Below are positions 1 to 21,563 of a stretch of 64,000 nt of DNA, one piece after another. The stretch comes from Sulfurimonadaceae bacterium (GTDB taxonomy: Bacteria > Campylobacterota > Campylobacteria > Campylobacterales > Sulfurimonadaceae): NCBI GenBank assembly GCA_028683835.1, contig JAQUHB010000013.1:1-64000 (forward strand), in the 5' to 3' direction. Under the pieces are notes generated by a model that saw nothing but the letters and a program-made list of their open reading frames with translations, searched no databases and was not told the origin of the DNA. Both the position numbers and the translations under genes were made by a program. Numbering within the stretch: the stretch's first letter is position 1; the number at the start of each line of letters is the position of its first letter.

Positions 1-906
1 CATGAGTATTGGAAACATTACAAAGAGTTGGCACAAAAAGCTGATTTGAGAGCTTGTTGGGCAGAACCTATCGTGTCATCTTTTGGCAAAGTTCTCGGAA
101 CATTTGCTATTTATTATACAAAACCAGGTTTTATTTATGGTTTTAATTATGAACAAGCATCATATACATCTGCTGGACTAGAACCTAGAGTATCGATGGT
201 ATATGAATTGGATACACAAAATATATTTAAAGCTATGTACAGCCGTGCGCATAGAGATCCATCATGGCAGGAGATGTTTACGGAAAATAACCGTGCGAGA
301 GTAGGCAATTCTGATTTACAACCTGAAAAAGTTGATGCCTTTGAAACTGCATATATTAAGAAATTTTCAAATGACTCATATTTGCAGACTGATCTTTTCT
401 ATCTTCTTAATAAAAATCAAATATATAATTCAATAACCAATCCTCAGTATCAAAATATTGAAGATACAAATCTATATGGTTTTGAAGTTGAATATAAAGG
501 GCATATATCTTCTGTTGATACATTATATTTAAACTATTCCTATGTAACCGGTTCGTCTCATATCCAAAATCAAGGTACAAATAGTTCTTTGCCAAATGTT
601 TCACATCATCTGGCTAAAGGATATTATATTTATAATATAAACGATACTTTGTCACTGAGCGGTGTTGCAAAATATGTTAGTTCAAAAGACAGAGAACCTG
701 GAGATGTACGTGAAAAAGTACCTGCATACTCCACACTAGATGCTTCACTCAGATACAAAAATCTAAAATACAAATACAGTGTAATGTTTAGTATCAAAGA
801 TATATTTAATGCAAGTATCATATATCCATCTCCTCCAAATACTTATGTTCAAGATTATGCGCAAGAACGCAGAAACTTCTTGATAACTTTAACAAAGGAG
901 TTTTAA
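1..906 (+). CDS. TonB-dependent outer-membrane receptor, C-terminal part
   Basis: The reading frame is open from base 1, so the gene begins outside the window. About 301 C-terminal residues are visible. They show alternating aromatic/polar strands typical of a TonB-dependent receptor barrel: a SRAHRDPSW segment, then NSDLQPEKVDAFETAYIKKF, the strand that in this family follows the 'NP.L.PE' signature. The chain ends in phenylalanine (TLTKEF), the usual C-terminal residue of outer-membrane barrels. Such receptors import siderophores, vitamins or metals using TonB energy; the ligand cannot be read from this fragment. An AAGGAG ribosome site for the next gene lies inside the last codons. A receptor followed by a YfiR-like protein and a membrane GGDEF-EAL protein suggests one operon linking surface sensing or uptake to c-di-GMP. 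Confidence 0.88.
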   Translation, partial: HEYWKHYKELAQKADLRACWAEPIVSSFGKVLGTFAIYYTKPGFIYGFNYEQASYTSAGLEPRVSMVYELDTQNIFKAMYSRAHRDPSWQEMFTENNRARVGNSDLQPEKVDAFETAYIKKFSNDSYLQTDLFYLLNKNQIYNSITNPQYQNIEDTNLYGFEVEYKGHISSVDTLYLNYSYVTGSSHIQNQGTNSSLPNVSHHLAKGYYIYNINDTLSLSGVAKYVSSKDREPGDVREKVPAYSTLDASLRYKNLKYKYSVMFSIKDIFNASIIYPSPPNTYVQDYAQERRNFLITLTKEF

Positions 907-1440
907 ATAAAAAAAATAATCTTTCTTTATTTAACTTTTGTTAATTTAGCATTTGCTCATAATTATAATGATGTCATATTAAAAGCGCAAGCTTCTATTT
1001 TCCCTAAAATTATACTTTTGGATAAGAAACTTGTAAATAAACTCATAGATGGAAAAATAATATATACTATAGTCTATGACCAAAGTGATTATTATACAGC
1101 TTTAAATATAGCAACAACTATAAATAAAGAGTATAAGGGGCATCTAGACAAATATGATTATACTATCAACCTTGTTGAGTTCTCAAAATTTTCATATAAT
1201 ACAAAAGCAACGGCTACATATATTTTAAACATAGACAGAGGTGTTGAAAAAATAGCTGATATAAGTAAACAAAAAGGGGTTATATCTTTTTCGTATGATA
1301 TAAACAATTTAGAAAAGGGACTTATGTTTTCTTTAATGATAGAAAAATCAACCGTTCTTTATCTAAATAAAGAGAACTTATCTACTAAAAAAATTGATTT
1401 CGTTGATGAATTATTTCAAATAGTTAGATTTATAAACTAA
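907..1440 (+). CDS. YfiR-like periplasmic protein, apparent ATA start
   Basis: The conservative ATG/GTG/TTG start is a TTG at 1018, but the frame is open back to the previous stop codon. The upstream part reads as a signal peptide: (I/M)KKIIFLYLTFVNLAFA followed by HNYNDVILKAQ. AAGGAG at 895-900 lies six bases before an ATA codon at 907, exactly where an ATG would be expected, so I place the start there (177 residues). The C-terminal half (GVISFSYDINNLEKGLMFSL, then a conserved YLN and a final hydrophobic helix) resembles the YfiR/DUF4154 family, periplasmic proteins that restrain membrane diguanylate cyclases. The next gene encodes a membrane GGDEF-EAL protein, which fits that role. Either ATA is used as a rare start, or the gene has lost its ATG by one G-to-A change. 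Confidence 0.7.
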   Translation: MKKIIFLYLTFVNLAFAHNYNDVILKAQASIFPKIILLDKKLVNKLIDGKIIYTIVYDQSDYYTALNIATTINKEYKGHLDKYDYTINLVEFSKFSYNTKATATYILNIDRGVEKIADISKQKGVISFSYDINNLEKGLMFSLMIEKSTVLYLNKENLSTKKIDFVDELFQIVRFIN

Positions 1441-1513: not shown

Positions 1514-2668
1514 ATGAAAAAAGTTCAATCTCTTTCTAAAAAAATAGTATTTTCAATTGCAGTAATATCAATCCTAACCATATTGGCTATGATTAATATT
1601 TTTGAAAAAATAAATAGAGAAGCTTTTTATACTGTAGAGATGGAAAAAGCAGATCTTATTGTAAATACTATTGAACCCTTAATAGCGCTTAATATTTATC
1701 TTAATATGAACGATAAAATCGATAAAACAATTTTTCAGTTTGTTCAAAATCCAAATATATTGGCTGTTAAAGTTTTAAAAAATAATGTAGTGATTAATGA
1801 GATAGCATCTAAAGAGTATAAAAGTGGTGTTGGTGAATCATTTATTATAAAAAAAACTATTTTTCAACCTAATTCCAAAAAAGAGATTGGCACTTTAATC
1901 CTTGTTTATTCAACTAAAAATTATGAAAAACTGATAAGTAAATATAATAAAGTATTGATCGAAAGTTTTTTTGTTTTTAGTATATTCTTTTTACTGTTTA
2001 GTCTTTATGTAAAAAGGCTTTTATCTCCTCTTAGAAAAATTGCCGAGTCATTAAAAAAGTATTCTCCAAATCAAAAAATTGATATACCTTTAATAACGCA
2101 GAACAATGAAATCGGATTAATTTCAAATGCTCTCATTGATATGCAAAACAACATATTGGAATACTCACACAAACAAGAAGATATTAATAATTATCTAGAA
2201 AAAAAAGTAAATGAGAAGACATTAGAATTACGCAAACAGCTTTATACAAATAGTTTAACAGGAATACCAAATAGACTAAGTTTATTGAATACTCTCAAAA
2301 ATTCTAATGAAGCGGCGCTTCTTATGATTAATATTGATGACTTTAAAGAGATAAACGATTTTTTTGGACATATGGCAGGGGATTATATTTTGATCATGTT
2401 ATCACGTATGTTAAATAACCTTTTTGAAAAACAAGAAGGTGTAACATTTATACATTTATCAGGTGATGAATTTGCCATACTTTTTGTTAAAAAACCTTTA
2501 ATTGATGAGTTTATACGTATTGCTCAAACATTAGTTTATGATATTGAAAAGATGATTTTTCCCTATGAAAGTAATGAATTATCTGTAAGAATTACTATTG
2601 GAGGCGTGTTCCAAAAAGAAAAAGCTTTGGAAAAGGCGGATATAGCTTTAAAATTAGCCAAAAAATAA
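1514..2668 (+). CDS. N-terminal half: periplasmic sensor and GGDEF domain
   Basis: Residues about 9-29 form a first membrane helix. A periplasmic sensing segment of about 120 residues follows, then a second helix at about 150-168, a HAMP-like linker (LLSPLRKIAESL) and a coiled region. The GGDEF domain runs from about 245 to 384. Its active-site motif is SGDEF (316-320), and the metal-binding NIDDF segment (273-277) is present. SGDEF variants can still be active, so diguanylate cyclase activity is possible. As it stands the protein ends at residue 384, just after the GGDEF domain. It would sense a periplasmic or membrane signal, possibly through the YfiR-like protein encoded upstream. Confidence 0.75.
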   Translation: MKKVQSLSKKIVFSIAVISILTILAMINIFEKINREAFYTVEMEKADLIVNTIEPLIALNIYLNMNDKIDKTIFQFVQNPNILAVKVLKNNVVINEIASKEYKSGVGESFIIKKTIFQPNSKKEIGTLILVYSTKNYEKLISKYNKVLIESFFVFSIFFLLFSLYVKRLLSPLRKIAESLKKYSPNQKIDIPLITQNNEIGLISNALIDMQNNILEYSHKQEDINNYLEKKVNEKTLELRKQLYTNSLTGIPNRLSLLNTLKNSNEAALLMINIDDFKEINDFFGHMAGDYILIMLSRMLNNLFEKQEGVTFIHLSGDEFAILFVKKPLIDEFIRIAQTLVYDIEKMIFPYESNELSVRITIGGVFQKEKALEKADIALKLAKK

Positions 2669-3448
2669 AAAAAATCTTTTCTGCTTTATGATGAAAAATT
2701 AAAGATAGAAAAGCAATATGAAAATAATATAGAATGGGTGAAAAAACTTAAAAACGCAATTAAAAACGATAGAATAATTCCATATTTCCAGCCTATCTTT
2801 AACAATATATCAAATAAAGTTGTTAGTGTTGAATGCTTAGTACGATTAATTGACGATGACAATAACATCATTAGCCCTTATCAGTTTTTAACAATTGCAA
2901 AAAAAAGCAAGTTATATAAAAATATTACAAAAATAATGATTCAAAAAAGTTGCCAATACTTTGAACATATAGAATGCGATTTTTCAGTCAATTTGTCAGT
3001 TGATGACATTATGGATGTAGAAATAATAAATTATCTGAAAGAAAATATTGAAAAATATGATGTCAGTAAAAAGATAGTCTTTGAAATTCTGGAAACTGAA
3101 GGGATAGAAAACTATCAGGAAGTATTGTCTTTTATACGTGAAATGAAATCTATAGGTTGCAGGATTGCGATAGATGATTTTGGTTCCGGATATTCAAATT
3201 TCGAGTATCTTCTTCAACTTAATATTGATTATATAAAAATAGACGGTTCATTAATAAAAAATATTGATAGAGATAAAAATGCACAAATTATTGTTGAGAC
3301 TATTGTAGACTTTGCAAAAAAACTAAAAGTACAGACAGTAGCTGAATTTGTCCATAATGAAGCCGTTTATCTAAAAGTGAAAGAACTGGGTGTAGATCGC
3401 ACACAAGGATATTATTTTGCAGAACCGCAAGCAAAGTTTTCTCTGTAA
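2669..3448 (+). CDS. C-terminal half: EAL phosphodiesterase domain without its own clear start
   Basis: The open frame begins directly after the TAA at 2666. The first usable start is a GTG at 2738 (236 residues) with no ribosome site before it. The EAL domain keeps the key c-di-GMP phosphodiesterase features: the glutamate of the EAL motif (VECLVRL, with Cys for Ala), NLS, FEILETE, DDFGSGYSN, KIDGS and the late VAEFV glutamate. As part of one protein it would hydrolyse c-di-GMP at the inner membrane. As a separate product it is probably poorly translated. Confidence 0.6.
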   Translation, partial: KKSFLLYDEKLKIEKQYENNIEWVKKLKNAIKNDRIIPYFQPIFNNISNKVVSVECLVRLIDDDNNIISPYQFLTIAKKSKLYKNITKIMIQKSCQYFEHIECDFSVNLSVDDIMDVEIINYLKENIEKYDVSKKIVFEILETEGIENYQEVLSFIREMKSIGCRIAIDDFGSGYSNFEYLLQLNIDYIKIDGSLIKNIDRDKNAQIIVETIVDFAKKLKVQTVAEFVHNEAVYLKVKELGVDRTQGYYFAEPQAKFSL

Positions 3449-4347: not shown

Positions 4348-5208
4348 ATGAGTGATGAGATTAAGAATATTGTTATAAATCTTAAACAAACTGATACACA
4401 AGAGTTTGAATCTGGCAATTTGATACAAGCTAATGCTCAAAAAAGTTTTGAGCAATTAATTGAGAATTTTAAAAAGAGTATTGATGAATCAAAAGAGAAA
4501 GAGAAGGCAAATAAAGGAATAGACAGAGTTCACAATACTATTCTCATAAATGGAAAAAGAGGTATGGGTAAAACTTCTTTTATGCTTAGTATGAAAAACA
4601 ACCCTGAGATTATGAAAGATTTATGTCCTCTTGATATCATCGATCCTACACTTATAGAAACAAAAGAGCATGTTTTTTTAAATATTATCACTTTAATAAA
4701 AGAGAAGATAGAGGAGCATATAAAGTGCGAGAAATGTGATGATAAAAGTACAAAATATAGAACATGGAAAGAAAGCCTTAAAAAGCTTGCAGGCGGATTT
4801 AGTATGCTTGATGGTGTGGGTTCAGAGCATTTAAAAAGTGATATGTGGGATTCACCTGAACTTATTTTGGAAAGAGGACTTTCCAATGCTAAACAAGGCA
4901 GTCATTTGGAGAAAAATTTCCATAACTTTATAGATGAGAGTTTGAAAATTCTAGATAAAAAAGCTTTTTTCTTGATTTTAGATGATATTGATACTTCACT
5001 CGATAAAGGTACCGCAATTTTAGAAACTCTTCGTAAATATCTTACATCGCGTAAATTAATTATTGCAATGCTTGGCGATATTGGTCTTTATTCGACACTT
5101 GTACGGCAGCTACAATGGGAAAAAATGGATTTAAAAAATATACTTTATAAGTATGAATTTCCTGAAAATAAAGAAAGATATATAAATCAGATTGAGCATC
5201 TTGAATAG
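4348..5208 (+). CDS. RdrA N-terminal fragment: P-loop ATPase
   Basis: 286 residues, with AAAGGG just ahead of the ATG. Walker A is GKRGMGKT at residues 69-76. Walker B is FLILDDID at about 208-215, followed by a sensor-like LIIAMLGDIG segment. A CEKC pair lies at 127-130. These elements place it among the KAP/STAND-like NTPases of the RdrA type. The stop falls just after the ATPase core, so the fragment might bind ATP but would lack the large C-terminal part expected to be needed for assembly with RdrB. Confidence 0.7.
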   Translation: MSDEIKNIVINLKQTDTQEFESGNLIQANAQKSFEQLIENFKKSIDESKEKEKANKGIDRVHNTILINGKRGMGKTSFMLSMKNNPEIMKDLCPLDIIDPTLIETKEHVFLNIITLIKEKIEEHIKCEKCDDKSTKYRTWKESLKKLAGGFSMLDGVGSEHLKSDMWDSPELILERGLSNAKQGSHLEKNFHNFIDESLKILDKKAFFLILDDIDTSLDKGTAILETLRKYLTSRKLIIAMLGDIGLYSTLVRQLQWEKMDLKNILYKYEFPENKERYINQIEHLE

Positions 5209-5226
5209 CAGTATTTAACTAAAATT

Positions 5227-6849
5227 TTGAAGCCTGAAAATCGTATTGATTTACAAAATTTATTGGTTTTAAAATCAAAATTAGTTATCGATAATATTCA
5301 TAATGATTTTTCTACTTATGTAAAAAACATGATTCAATACATATTTTTTACAAAAACTGGTGATACTTCAGAATATGAATATACGTTATTAACACAATCT
5401 ACAAGATCCGTTTTACAGATTCTTCAAGCGTGGGATGAAATGGAGAGGTTGAATACAAATTTTATTGATAGGTTCAAGCACACTTTTTATACAACACTTA
5501 AAAAGAAACTCGAACCATATACTTTGATAGAATTGCCGCAAAGAGAAAAATTTTTAAATCTACTTTCAGTTTATATATTAAAAGAAACTATCAGTAGAGA
5601 TAATCATCTCAAATTAACTCCCAGTTTTGCGAAAGAAGATGACAACATAACAATGCTTTATCTGAATATGATGGCAAATCATCTTTTGAAGCCTCAAGAT
5701 TATTTGTCATATTTTATAAAAGTAGGCTATGTATTAGAACAATATAGTAATGTTGTAGTCGCTAGTGGAAAAAACGAAATTTTAAATTTTATTGATCATA
5801 TTGGCTTAGATAACCATACTTCAGCAGTGGAAATATCAAAAAAGTTGTTAACAACTTTTAAAATTGACAGTAACACTCATAATACAAAACCAATATTTTT
5901 TGGTAATTTATCAATTTCAAAAAACAATTTAAAATCTATAAAAAATAAAAATAACCTATCATTATTGATGTCTAGAGTCTATAATTTAAATGGTAATTAC
6001 TACAATATACTCTCAATATTTAATCTTATTGGACTATTGGCAGATATTTCAAATCATGAGGATATAGAAAATATTTTGAAATTAAATAATGTTATTAGAG
6101 ATTTTCGCCTTTATGACAATTCAACTACTTCAAGTAAATCAAATGAAGAACAAGAAGTTGATGATGATGAAAATGTCAGCTTTAATATATCCGAAGAACT
6201 TTCAAATTCCTTGATAGCTTGGGCAAAAACAAGTAAAGATATAAAACAGACATTATCCATGGCCGACTTGGCTAAAATTTGGATTAGATTCGTAACAAAT
6301 ATAAATGAAATTGAAAATAGATCGAATAATAGAATAAAAAATTATTCAGTCATATTAGATTTGTACTGGGCTGCATTTCTAAATGCTCTTTATATTTGGT
6401 GTGAAGATAAAAAAGGAACTACAGGAATTGATTTTAAAAATCCATCAGAATCAAGTAATTTCTTTTATGAAAAATTAAAGAAAGATGAACGATATGAAGA
6501 ACAAAGTGGATTGTTTGTTCTAAAGGAAAGTGAAAAAGAAAATGGTTATACGTTATTTGATTATCTTTATGCATGTCCTATATTTAATCTAACAGCTAAA
6601 TATTTTGAAAATTTATCAAATATTACTTCTAAAATAAATTTTGGATTGTTATCTAAAGAGCAACAAATAGAAGCTATTAAGAATATTCAAAACTGGAAAA
6701 CTAAGGCTGAAGGAACAATAATTACTGATTTAAGTAAGCAGTATAAAAACATTGTGAAAAGAAATATGAGTGCACTTATTTTAGAAATAAATCCAAAATC
6801 TCCAAAAAAAGCCACATCAATTGAAGATAATAAGGTAATCGATAGTTAA
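5227..6849 (+). CDS. RdrA C-terminal fragment
   Basis: 540 residues if initiated at the TTG at 5227, which has no ribosome site before it. The frame is open from 5209. The sequence is mostly helical and lysine/asparagine-rich, with an acidic EEQEVDDDEN patch near 6150. It shows no recognisable catalytic motif, consistent with the C-terminal helical part of RdrA. It ends one base into rdrB (TAATG overlap), which suggests translational coupling to rdrB. If ribosomes stop at 5206, this coupling may also lower rdrB expression. Confidence 0.6.
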   Translation: MKPENRIDLQNLLVLKSKLVIDNIHNDFSTYVKNMIQYIFFTKTGDTSEYEYTLLTQSTRSVLQILQAWDEMERLNTNFIDRFKHTFYTTLKKKLEPYTLIELPQREKFLNLLSVYILKETISRDNHLKLTPSFAKEDDNITMLYLNMMANHLLKPQDYLSYFIKVGYVLEQYSNVVVASGKNEILNFIDHIGLDNHTSAVEISKKLLTTFKIDSNTHNTKPIFFGNLSISKNNLKSIKNKNNLSLLMSRVYNLNGNYYNILSIFNLIGLLADISNHEDIENILKLNNVIRDFRLYDNSTTSSKSNEEQEVDDDENVSFNISEELSNSLIAWAKTSKDIKQTLSMADLAKIWIRFVTNINEIENRSNNRIKNYSVILDLYWAAFLNALYIWCEDKKGTTGIDFKNPSESSNFFYEKLKKDERYEEQSGLFVLKESEKENGYTLFDYLYACPIFNLTAKYFENLSNITSKINFGLLSKEQQIEAIKNIQNWKTKAEGTIITDLSKQYKNIVKRNMSALILEINPKSPKKATSIEDNKVIDS

Positions 6850-9149
6850 TGAAGTTAAATCTTTCAATAGCCTTTCTTGATTCCCAAAAAATTATAGAAC
6901 AATATTTTTATAAGGGATTACTTGGTGACAAAGAATTATATAACCATCTTTTTGTAGAAGCGCATAACAAAGACCCATATAAGCCTGATTATATTTTTAA
7001 AAATGTTATGAGTGATTTTACAAAAGGAAAATCTCTAAATGAATTGCTAATTGACTCACTAGAAGAACTCTCTAAGATGCTTCTCTTTAGAGGTGAAAAT
7101 ATCTATGTAAAAAATCAAGATTTTGAAAAGTGGCAAAATACGATTTTAAGTGTTTCACCTTTGTTGATTATCTCATATGCCATTTATAAGCAATCACAAA
7201 ATTCTTTTCGTATTGAGCCTGAAAAATTAATTCAAAAAATTTTTGCAAAAACTGCATTGCCATCTATATATGAGCCACAACTTGATTCTATGATAGAAAA
7301 TAGCAGACTCAATGAGATGCATATGCATTTAAACGGTACGACAGAAATAGATGTTGTATGGCATAATGCCTTGCAACAACCGCAAGACTTTTACCAATAT
7401 ATAAAAAAAACACTTAACAATTCGATAGTTACAGAACAATACCTTCAGGTAAGTAGTTTTGAGCAAGATGATTTTTATAGACTACTGAAAATTGCCTCTC
7501 AAATCCGAGATCAGATGCTATCTATGATGAATGAGCAATGTCATGAAAAAGATTATTTTACAAAAGACACTTTTGATATTGGTAAAACACTGTATTTTAC
7601 CTCTCATAAACATCCAATAAGTTTAGTTGAAAATACAGCATGTCTTGATACAAAGATGCAATATGAATCACTTTTTATAGTTCGAAGTTTAGAGTACTTG
7701 ACAAGTTCTCAAAGTGTCTATTTCGGACATCTTTTTCATTACTATTTATTGATTTACTCCTATTTTCAAAAGCTTTTAGTTCAGCAAAAAACACAAGTCG
7801 GTTTTGACCAGTTTCAAAAGATTACTGTTAATGAACTCAGAGAACTAACAGAGGAAAAATATACTGCTAGATATCATCAACTGCAGGGGATGTATGATAA
7901 TTCATTATCTGTACTTGAGGGGAGATTCGCGCCTAAAGATGACTTGAATAAATCATTAAAATTACTCAAGGATATTCATAAAGGTTATGATAAGAAATTG
8001 CAAAAACAATTTCAACTTAAACTTGTACCGCATTTTATAAAACTACAAGATGATAGAAATCCTGAGAAAATAATAACTTTCAGAGATTTGAAGTTAAGGA
8101 TTAAAAATCGAAAAACTCTTGATGTTTTACTTGAGAGTATGAAATATCATGATGAAAAGGGTAAGTATATTTTTAAAGATTTGATTGTAGGTTTTGATGC
8201 AGCAGCAAATGAACTGCACGCATCGCCTGAAGCATTTGCTCCTATATTTAGAAAATTGGCATTCTTGGGATACAAAAACTTTACTTATCATGCAGGGGAA
8301 GATTTTGTTCACATACTTTCAGGACTTCGTATGGTATATGAAGCAGTTGAATTTTTAGATATGCAATCGGGAAATCGCATAGGACATGCAACTGCATTAG
8401 GGATTGAACCTGAATTATGGAATCAAAGATTGTATGATAGTAAATTGACTATTAAAAAAGGGGAATGGTTAGACAACCTTGTTTTTGCTTATAGCTTTTG
8501 TTCTGAGCATCATGTAATGTTTGGCTATCTTGCCAAATTAGAAGCATCTATAAGACACCATTTTTCAGATATATACGGCAATGAAAAATATTATTCTATA
8601 TATCAAATAATTGAGGCATGGAAATGTAGAAAGTATGATCCAATTATTGTGTTTGGATGGAGAGAGCCAAGTTTATTTGAGGATTTTGAGTCAAAGGAAC
8701 TGAAAGAATATAACATAATAGATAAAGATATTTGTACACTTTATGAAACTTATCATGAAGGCTCAAAAATCGCGAAATATAACAAAATGATTCAGATTGA
8801 ACCTTTAGAGATTTTTGGAATTAAAGAGTTAAGAGAATTCCAAAACATGATGATTCTATTTTTAAATAAAAAGAATATTGCTATTGAAACACTTCCAACA
8901 AGTAATGTCCGTATAAGTTATTATAAGCAATACAGTGAGCATCATTTAGCAAGATGGTTGGGACTAGTAAACTCAGATGACCCAAAACCTAATGTAGTAG
9001 TAGGTAGTGATGATACGGGAATATTTATGACTAATTTACGTAATGAATACGCTCACATTTTTCAATCATTGACTGAAAAATCAGATTATGAAACAGCTTT
9101 GCAAAAAATAAATTATTTAAATATTATGAGTAAATCTTTTACATTTTAA
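6849..9149 (+). CDS. rdrB: RdrB, adenosine deaminase-family effector of RADAR
   Basis: 766 residues, with the start overlapping the rdrA stop by one base. All deaminase zinc and catalytic motifs are in order: HMH at 158-160, HAGE at 481-484 (catalytic Glu484), GHA with His513, and SDD at 720-722. The protein is about twice the size of housekeeping adenosine deaminases, with large insertions, as is usual for RdrB. In characterised RADAR systems RdrB forms a hollow multimer. With RdrA it converts adenosine to inosine in RNA or in ATP/dATP pools during infection, causing growth arrest or phage restriction. This copy looks intact and catalytically complete, in contrast to rdrA. No third RADAR gene (a small membrane protein in some systems) is seen. 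Confidence 0.87.
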   Translation: MKLNLSIAFLDSQKIIEQYFYKGLLGDKELYNHLFVEAHNKDPYKPDYIFKNVMSDFTKGKSLNELLIDSLEELSKMLLFRGENIYVKNQDFEKWQNTILSVSPLLIISYAIYKQSQNSFRIEPEKLIQKIFAKTALPSIYEPQLDSMIENSRLNEMHMHLNGTTEIDVVWHNALQQPQDFYQYIKKTLNNSIVTEQYLQVSSFEQDDFYRLLKIASQIRDQMLSMMNEQCHEKDYFTKDTFDIGKTLYFTSHKHPISLVENTACLDTKMQYESLFIVRSLEYLTSSQSVYFGHLFHYYLLIYSYFQKLLVQQKTQVGFDQFQKITVNELRELTEEKYTARYHQLQGMYDNSLSVLEGRFAPKDDLNKSLKLLKDIHKGYDKKLQKQFQLKLVPHFIKLQDDRNPEKIITFRDLKLRIKNRKTLDVLLESMKYHDEKGKYIFKDLIVGFDAAANELHASPEAFAPIFRKLAFLGYKNFTYHAGEDFVHILSGLRMVYEAVEFLDMQSGNRIGHATALGIEPELWNQRLYDSKLTIKKGEWLDNLVFAYSFCSEHHVMFGYLAKLEASIRHHFSDIYGNEKYYSIYQIIEAWKCRKYDPIIVFGWREPSLFEDFESKELKEYNIIDKDICTLYETYHEGSKIAKYNKMIQIEPLEIFGIKELREFQNMMILFLNKKNIAIETLPTSNVRISYYKQYSEHHLARWLGLVNSDDPKPNVVVGSDDTGIFMTNLRNEYAHIFQSLTEKSDYETALQKINYLNIMSKSFTF

Positions 9150-19604: not shown

Positions 19605-21563
19605 ATGATCAAAAAAACTACTTATGCAAAGATTACCGCTAAAATTATTTTTGTCACCTTATTTATTACACTTTTGGGCGCATATTTTTATGGCGAATAT
19701 ATGAAAAAAGAAGCAATTCAAGAGATGGCCCAAATCGATGCTTCTAAGACAAGTAAACTTGTGTTTGAAGCGCTTTATTCGGAGATGAAAAAGGGATGGA
19801 ATAAAGATGATATCCATGAAGTGATATCAAGACTCAATAAAGTCGATTCACAAATGAAAATTGATATTTACAGAAGTGAAGTGGTAGCCAAACTTTTTGG
19901 AGATATAGAAAAAGATAAGCAAGCAAGAGAAACAGATTTAGAAGTTATGCAGGCCATTCATGGTAAGAAACTTCTCAATATTGTCGATTCTAAAATGATC
20001 ATATATGATTATCCTATTGTAGCAAAAGATGAGTGTAAAAAATGTCATGTGAACGCTCAAGTAGGTGATATTTTAGGTGTCATAAAGATAACTTACCCCA
20101 TAGAAAATCTAAAGGTCTCTTTTGAGGAAATGATAAACTTTTTTATTATATTCATTCTTATATTCTCTATTATTATTTTTATTGGATTGTTTTTAGAACT
20201 TAATTTGTATCTTATAAGACCTATTCGTAATTTTTCAAATACAATCAAAAATATTACAAAATCAAAAGATTTAAAATTGCGTATAGATGTAAATAATCAT
20301 ATCCAAGAGATAGATTCTATACAAGAAACCTTTAACAATATGCTAAGTTCTATCGAATATCAATTTTATCATGATGCTTTAACAGGTTTGGAAAATAGAA
20401 AAAAATTGATAGAAAATTTAGAAAAAAAGGTCAACTCTTTTTTAGTGATAATTAACATTGATTCTTTTCAAGAGATAAATGACCTTTATGGTGATATAAG
20501 TGGAGATATTATCCTTCAAGAACTCGCAAAATTTTTAAAAGAGAGTATGCCTAAAGATGCATTGATATATAGGTTACATTCAGATGAATTTGCTTATTTG
20601 TGTCAAAACAATAATGATTTTAAAGAGTTTTTAACATTTGCTTCATTACTTAGTGAAAATATCTCTAAAAAGATTTTTGTAATCGAAGAACAAGGTGGAG
20701 AAGTAAACTTAACTGTGACTCTAGGAATCTCTTACGGAGATAATTTTTTACTGACCAATGCAGATATCGCCCTTACTCTAGCGAAAAAAAGTAGAAAGCA
20801 TTTTTTAGTTTATGATGAGTCCATGGCTATGGCAAAGGAATATGAAAAGAATTTTGAATGGGGTAAAAAACTCAAAAAAGCTATAGATGAAGATAGAGTT
20901 ATTCCCGTTTATCAGCCTATTGTTGATATTAAAACACAAAAAATTATAAAGTATGAAGCATTGATTAGAATAAAAGACTATGATGGAAAATATATAGCTC
21001 CTATACATTTTTTAGAGCTTTCTAAAAAAAATAAACTTTATCATCGATTGACAAAGATCATGATAAGTAAAACCTTAGACAAATTTAAAGAGTTGCCATA
21101 CCTTGTATCTATAAATATATCTGTCGAAGATATTTTAAATCAAGAAATATATACTTTTATAATAGAAAAACTAAAAAATAGTGCAATGGGTGATAGAATA
21201 ATCTTTGAGATTATAGAATCTGAGGGGATAGAAAACTTTGAGGAAGTACTTACTTTTATAGATGATGTTAAAAAATGTGGTGCGAAGATCTCTATCGATG
21301 ATTTTGGAACAGGTTATTCAAACTTTGATTATCTTATGAAGCTAAAAGTTGATTATATAAAGATCGATGGTTCAATGATTAAAAATGTAGATACGGATAA
21401 AAACGCACAGATGATTACCCAAACAATCGTAGAATTTGCAAAAAAACTTAAAATTCATACTGTTGCCGAATTCGTTTATTCTAAAAATATTTTTGAGAAG
21501 GTAAAAGAGCTAGATGTTGATTTCGCTCAAGGATATTATTTTGGAGAACCAAAAGAGTTATAA
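19605..21563 (+). CDS. c-heme-motif sensor protein with GGDEF and EAL domains
   Basis: 652 residues. A membrane helix at about 11-30 is followed by a periplasmic domain with a c-type heme motif, CKKCH (144-148), in a DUF3365/Tll0287-like context (VSRLNKVDSQMKIDIYR, then YPIVAKDECKKCH). A second helix runs from about 178 to 200, then HAMP. The GGDEF domain has HSDEF (325-329) instead of GGDEF, so cyclase activity is unlikely. The EAL domain keeps its catalytic set: E451, N504, E536, D565/D566, K587 and E622. The protein is best read as a c-di-GMP phosphodiesterase controlled by a periplasmic heme that may sense redox state, NO or oxygen. It is the intact paralogue of the interrupted gene at 1514. 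Confidence 0.88.
   Translation: MIKKTTYAKITAKIIFVTLFITLLGAYFYGEYMKKEAIQEMAQIDASKTSKLVFEALYSEMKKGWNKDDIHEVISRLNKVDSQMKIDIYRSEVVAKLFGDIEKDKQARETDLEVMQAIHGKKLLNIVDSKMIIYDYPIVAKDECKKCHVNAQVGDILGVIKITYPIENLKVSFEEMINFFIIFILIFSIIIFIGLFLELNLYLIRPIRNFSNTIKNITKSKDLKLRIDVNNHIQEIDSIQETFNNMLSSIEYQFYHDALTGLENRKKLIENLEKKVNSFLVIINIDSFQEINDLYGDISGDIILQELAKFLKESMPKDALIYRLHSDEFAYLCQNNNDFKEFLTFASLLSENISKKIFVIEEQGGEVNLTVTLGISYGDNFLLTNADIALTLAKKSRKHFLVYDESMAMAKEYEKNFEWGKKLKKAIDEDRVIPVYQPIVDIKTQKIIKYEALIRIKDYDGKYIAPIHFLELSKKNKLYHRLTKIMISKTLDKFKELPYLVSINISVEDILNQEIYTFIIEKLKNSAMGDRIIFEIIESEGIENFEEVLTFIDDVKKCGAKISIDDFGTGYSNFDYLMKLKVDYIKIDGSMIKNVDTDKNAQMITQTIVEFAKKLKIHTVAEFVYSKNIFEKVKELDVDFAQGYYFGEPKEL

Follow-up and report, generated by a model that had tools for sequence, protein, structure and literature searches.

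An in-frame stop in a GGDEF-EAL sensor gene of a Sulfurimonadaceae bacterium: probable recent loss of a putative c-di-GMP phosphodiesterase in an apparently decaying operon

When a stop codon falls between the GGDEF and EAL domains of a membrane sensor gene, it may leave a cyclase behind, divide the protein into two working halves or abolish the enzyme altogether. This question is raised by a locus near the beginning of the window analysed here, a stretch of 64,000 nucleotides from a Sulfurimonadaceae bacterium that forms the start of contig C76 in a draft genome of 88 contigs and 2.51 Mb. On the forward strand, a frame runs from an ATG at 1514 to a TAA at 3446–3448, with the TAA at 2666–2668 as its sole interruption; 384 codons lie 5′ of this stop and 259 open codons lie 3′ of it. 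The sequence-only reading had reported such a break in an otherwise open frame, placed between the two domains, and the sequence and the Pfam matches bear it out. In other respects the EAL half is intact.

In the N-terminal half (1514–2665, forward strand), two hydrophobic helices flank what is presumably a periplasmic domain, both assigned by inspection and from the structure model; a HAMP-like linker then leads to the GGDEF domain, which is degenerate. The HAMP-like Pfam match (residues 165–215) scores 23.2 bits, under its cut-off of 25, and the GGDEF match (residues 246–384, ahead of the stop) covers profile positions 4–156 of 161. The EAL half (2669–3448, forward strand) is open to its own stop, and its Pfam EAL match (E=3.9e-69) spans nearly the whole profile. 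Since both halves match Pfam significantly and lie in one frame, in the order seen in intact relatives, the split frame is not a product of chance. A recoding of TAA seems unlikely, as several long open reading frames in the window terminate at this codon.

Orthologues were drawn from eight genomes of the genus together with named genomes, and the 17 that cover the stop site were compared; the L061 sequence is identical to L032 and was counted once, two fragments (L125 and L128) do not reach the site, and from L075 onwards all matches but L078 and L104 are more distant. These comparators share 59–70% identity with the query, more than the paralogue at 19605 does. At the site of the TAA, all 17 carry a sense codon, for Gln in 13, Glu in two, Lys in one and His in one. 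The closest sequences among the genus genomes, L032 and L033 (70 and 67% identity), both have Gln there, and among named genomes the protein's nearest relatives come from Campylobacterota metagenome genomes, many of them labelled Sulfurimonas. Judged from these alignments, a single nonsense substitution suffices to explain TAA 2666. A Ser close before the stop is found in 17/17 orthologues and is substituted in the window protein. No relatives of the gene were found among viral contigs. Internal stops are absent from all 28 EAL matches of this genome; when the full-length query was searched against the eight genus genomes, this one included, two of 53 matches contained internal stops, namely the window gene, with one, and another GGDEF-EAL gene in G001 (G001:C1:1185954-1187360), with four.

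The window also holds an intact GGDEF-EAL gene at 19605–21563 (forward strand), whose GGDEF domain is likewise degenerate, with an HSDEF motif and Asn at the Asp327 position. The broken frame had been described as collinear with this gene. The alignment of the linker around the stop is correct, but significant alignment begins only at residue 158, leaving the N-terminal sensor half unaligned. The two genes share 43% identity over 484 columns. A recent duplication was considered and rejected on this identity and on the failure of the N-terminal halves to align; by sequence, the gene at 19605 is a distant paralogue and no recent copy.

What the stop removed depends on what the intact enzyme did. 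The available part of PMC6629876 gives seven PleD active-site residues for diguanylate cyclases and a list of nine EAL residues; we mapped these through motif spacing and alignment to RbdA and MorA, PleD itself being unaligned. The reference orthologue (L061) keeps five of the seven cyclase residues, the exceptions being Asp327, replaced by Asn, and Arg446, replaced by Lys. The first metal-binding Asp of the GGDEF domain, at the Asp327 position, is Asn in 17/17 orthologues, and the phosphate-binding Arg446 position holds Lys in 16 and Ile in one, so that none of them carries the full set of seven. The I-site of the window protein has no RxxD. Eight of the nine listed EAL phosphodiesterase residues are present by sequence (Glu523, Arg527, Asn584, Glu616, Asp646, Asp647, Glu703 and Gln723). 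The ninth, Glu546, is Lys in both the window protein and L061; Lys is usual at this position in the Campylobacterota GGDEF-EAL proteins surveyed.

In a tblastn survey, Asn occupied the first GGDEF metal position in 5/26 matches of this genome, the window gene included (34 loci were searched, and the genome has 52 GGDEF matches), in 14/23 congeneric matches and in 16/57 matches among L075–L140, of which at least two (L090 and L095) are weak secondary matches. Many Campylobacterota GGDEF-EAL proteins have this Asp replaced, most often by Asn, and keep the EAL catalytic residues, as judged in full-length matches (19605–21563, L003, L004, L005, which is the 19605 paralogue, L008, L034–L060 and L075–L112). 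Among the matches listed, the literature held nothing direct on magnesium and an Asp-to-Asn change in GGDEF domains. An SGDEF motif is by itself no bar to activity, since the available part of PMC8079147 reports that MbaA, which has SGDEF, makes c-di-GMP in vivo; the purified cytoplasmic domain did not. Because the GGDEF active site is degenerate and the EAL residues are kept, the ancestor was probably a c-di-GMP phosphodiesterase with a presumably regulatory GGDEF domain, that is, a membrane sensor that would have degraded c-di-GMP through its EAL domain.

The broken gene belongs to a conserved gene group that comes to light in its intact relatives. A TonB receptor, a small periplasmic protein and the GGDEF-EAL protein occur together in 16/16 relatives with upstream DNA. 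In all 15 named loci scanned, a small gene with a KAQASIFPK motif lies upstream and the end of a TonB receptor precedes it; a receptor reading frame of about 700 codons was seen in 12 of the 15. G001 carries the same trio, and L074, which is cut, was left unscored for gene order. The small genes, at L061:3356-3982 and its equivalents, encode a conserved periplasmic family marked by this motif. We found no description of an operon of TonB receptor, YfiR-like protein and GGDEF-EAL phosphodiesterase in the open-licence literature; one paper there that touches on TonB-dependent proteins, YfiR and GGDEF concerns oxidant resistance in E. coli.

In the window, all three members of the trio are damaged. 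The receptor survives as a C-terminal remnant (124–903, forward strand) that corresponds to residues 434–694 of a relative's 694 at 72% identity. The first 433 residues have no closer counterpart in the assembly than a paralogue on contig C87, which is 28% identical. The remnant is fused in frame to a PocR-PAS-GAF reading frame at the contig start, of which bases 1–123 (forward strand), base 1 being the first of the contig, encode a piece of the GAF domain. Bases 1–127 are exactly the end of contig C55 (L152), where this reading frame matches PocR and GAF and, weakly, PAS. We take an exact 127-base overlap at contig ends to be what an assembly graph would produce. Such an overlap, together with the fusion of the PocR-PAS-GAF frame to the receptor, suggests a deletion or rearrangement. 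C55 carries three genes with 78–87% identity to neighbours of the G001 operon, and one of them also adjoins the operon in G003, which makes a join between C55 and C76, with gene order altered, plausible by sequence. The G003 stretch also carries, at its far end, a piece of another of these genes, and the PocR frame has no match in the operon stretches of G001 and G003. The small periplasmic protein gene (907–1437, forward strand), possibly YfiR-like or substrate-binding-protein-like by a weak predicted-fold match, has ATA at 907–909 in place of the ATG found in 13/13 orthologues, and its Shine-Dalgarno-like sequence is still there (−6.6 kcal/mol).

The window contains a further interrupted gene. 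A RADAR rdrA-like gene (4348–6846) is broken by an in-frame TAG at 5206, a site with a sense codon in 7/7 aligned homologues, Glu in four of them. It matches NCBIfam RdrA at E=2e-37 with 129 bits, where the cut-off is 600, and PADLOC RdrA at E=2.8e-28. The adjoining rdrB-like reading frame (6849–9149, 766 residues) is open and scores 167.5 bits against an NCBIfam cut-off of 800. Homologues are patchy: among 298 genomes from the order, 12 have a match, counting the present one, and the C-terminal part used as a query had no match in the seven other genomes of the genus. These matches, below the NCBIfam cut-offs, point to a RADAR-like anti-phage system, and sequence comparison identifies the rdrA pair as a true interruption. 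There are 16 same-frame neighbour pairs in the window, most of which are, by inspection only, opposite-strand shadows or adjacent genes. Pfam resolved the same-frame pair 60361/61207 into two different genes, and likewise the overlapping pairs 9845/10543 and 21613/22310, which lie in differing frames.

The age of the damage was approached through codon models on 14 sequences with all three genes (L063, L070, L071 and L074 left out), with background parameters fixed and branch lengths in synonymous changes per codon, on a tree with weak nodes (48% for L061 with G001). No significant rise in omega was seen on the window branch in any of the four segments. Omega on this branch against background was 0.133 vs 0.115 for the EAL half (2dlnL 0.25), 0.171 vs 0.158 for the N-terminal half (2dlnL 0.13), 0.136 vs 0.137 for the periplasmic gene (2dlnL 0.00) and 0.190 vs 0.134 for the receptor remnant (2dlnL 1.73). 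The test is a weak one because two control branches with no known lesions shift more than the window does, L066 in the N-terminal half (2dlnL 12.0) and L073 in the receptor (2dlnL 10.0); the receptor fit for L078 ran to an absurd branch length. An omega of 1 is rejected for both halves, so purifying selection is still visible, and when the window branch was divided into a period under constraint and a neutral one, the pooled neutral fraction was 0.03 (95% interval 0–0.08). It follows that the lesions must be young or that some product is still used. Among 17 sequences (the window and 16 orthologues, with L074 dropped as incomplete), private substitutions at otherwise invariant columns number 5/90 in the N-terminal half of the window gene, the highest count, tied with L104, and 2/84 in its EAL half, within a range of 0–7 for the others; the former, which includes the Ser close before the stop, hints at relaxation at most. 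Measured against the divergence from the closest relatives, the lesions, if real, are young.

In the predicted structure of L061 (pLDDT of about 78–93 by blocks in the GGDEF domain, pTM 0.44 for the whole protein), the last GGDEF helix ends at residue 385 and the last strand spans residues 390–392. The stop takes the position of residue 386, and the truncated product therefore lacks both the last strand and the Arg446 position. The sequence-only reading had proposed a change from a bifunctional to a cyclase-only protein that could raise c-di-GMP. Such a truncated domain may still fold, as its Pfam match is nearly complete (4–156 of 161), and SGDEF alone can be active, as the available part of PMC8079147 reports for MbaA in vivo. 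Against a working cyclase stand the Asn at the metal position in all 17 orthologues, a truncation that takes away the Arg446 position as well as the last strand, and an I-site that has no RxxD; we consider this outcome very improbable. The proposal thus finds no support: a cyclase product is unlikely, and the stop would remove an enzyme rather than leave a cyclase, because the ancestor seems to have been a phosphodiesterase whose GGDEF domain was already degenerate. Should c-di-GMP rise, loss of a phosphodiesterase is the likelier reason. A functional fission, in which a membrane sensor half would coexist with a free EAL phosphodiesterase restarted just before the EAL domain, is consistent with the retained catalytic residues and low omega of the EAL half, and has a precedent in Shigella, where, according to the available part of PMC11327459, nonsense alleles of dgcE, dgcQ and dgcN still raise c-di-GMP, consistent with internal starts. 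Here, the first in-frame ATG, GTG or TTG after the stop is the GTG at 2738–2740 (forward strand), which opens a reading frame and is a possible but weak restart. It lies about 70 bases past the stop and has no Shine-Dalgarno sequence, its energy of 0.2 kcal/mol being the median of 2000 random positions, and 36 of 40 reading frames in the window are as good or better. Omega is as low in the periplasmic gene, which lacks its start codon, so the low value in the EAL half needs no special protection and recency explains it. With all three operon genes damaged as well, we judge fission improbable.

The lesions might instead be artefacts of sequencing or assembly, or a minority strain allele chosen by the assembler; the genome is a draft of 88 contigs, and the damage to the receptor sits at the end of one of them, where the exact overlap is found. 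This explanation would have to account for lesions of differing kinds in neighbouring genes (nonsense, start loss and truncation, with a further nonsense change in rdrA), for changes that are substitutions rather than homopolymer indels, and for the other same-frame pair tested by Pfam (60361/61207), which proved to be two different genes. We give it little credence. Readthrough, or RNA polymerase slippage on the A6 and A8 runs flanking the stop, could in principle restore the full protein, and both the A-rich context AAAAAATAAAAAAAA and the conservation of both halves are in keeping with it. Slippage past an in-frame stop, however, requires two compensating slips, the A runs code for lysines as they do in relatives, and the lost start codon of the second gene would remain unexplained; this possibility is extremely slight. 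What is seen directly is the stop, the lost ATG and, in this assembly, the truncation of the receptor, together with conservation elsewhere and intact copies in relatives. We favour, as quite probable, a recent nonsense loss-of-function allele of a membrane sensor, probably a c-di-GMP phosphodiesterase, in an operon whose genes are all decaying. The three genes would form one transcript; with the lesions taken as real, they have struck each gene, leaving the receptor 5′-truncated and fused, the periplasmic gene deprived of its ATG and the enzyme cut, and the proteins of the operon would no longer be made. As a gene lesion, the nonsense allele would be ordinary gene decay. It cautions against assuming that a cyclase results whenever a stop parts a GGDEF from an EAL domain, the GGDEF domain of this Campylobacterota subfamily being itself degenerate.

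The intact operon invites a broader, more tentative reading. Sequence searches offer little on the periplasmic protein: 11 members of its family gave no credible Pfam match, a YfiR-type model being absent from the ten families matched at E up to 1; the L061 member had no NCBIfam match, and a PDB sequence search returned one chance-level hit (E 0.3), as did that for the sensor domain (E 0.58). The predicted model (mean pLDDT 63) matches YfiR with Foldseek at E 0.009 and with a Z of about 9.7 over 130–132 residues (rmsd 3.2–3.6). The same model reaches Z 9.9–10.3 with substrate-binding-type proteins and 9.2 with an unrelated cystathionine lyase, so the YfiR match hardly stands out. For the N-terminal half of the sensor, the best NCBIfam match is DgcN/YfiN (residues 10–371), at 94 bits against a cut-off of 325; an identity as YfiN by sequence was rejected, as the match is lost once the GGDEF domain is left out. 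By analogy, the periplasmic protein and the membrane sensor may work like the YfiR-YfiN or NspS-MbaA pairs. It is conceivable, though doubtful, that the intact operon constitutes an undescribed trans-envelope sensor, in which a TonB receptor would relay ligand occupancy to a YfiR- or substrate-binding-protein-like periplasmic protein; this in turn would control a YfiN-like membrane protein whose GGDEF domain has turned into a regulator of the attached EAL phosphodiesterase. The broken copy would then represent a loss-of-function allele found in nature, one that might have left a free EAL enzyme.

Known systems resemble the locus in part. The Shigella flexneri genes dgcE, dgcQ and dgcN are likewise nonsense-cut c-di-GMP enzyme genes that are intact in relatives; in the available part of PMC11327459, the stop precedes the GGDEF domain and nearby Met codons may permit restart, whereas here the stop follows the GGDEF motif of a degenerate domain, and no restart lies near apart from a GTG with no Shine-Dalgarno sequence. 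By sequence and predicted fold, RbdA (PA0861) and PA0575 are among the closest solved GGDEF-EAL proteins, although the RbdA alignment keeps Asp at the metal position and the sensor domain differs. The YfiR-YfiN (DgcN/TpbB) system shares the sub-cut-off DgcN/YfiN match of the N-terminal half and a partner model that matches YfiR among others; it differs in that the present protein has an added EAL domain and a degenerate GGDEF domain, its operon includes a TonB receptor and its partner is not recognised as YfiR by sequence. In the NspS-MbaA system of V. cholerae, as the available part of PMC8079147 describes it, a periplasmic binding protein gene likewise immediately precedes that of a membrane GGDEF-EAL sensor, and this sensor has SGDEF. 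Synthesis of c-di-GMP is reported for MbaA; in the present protein the metal Asp is replaced, and its operon begins with a TonB receptor.
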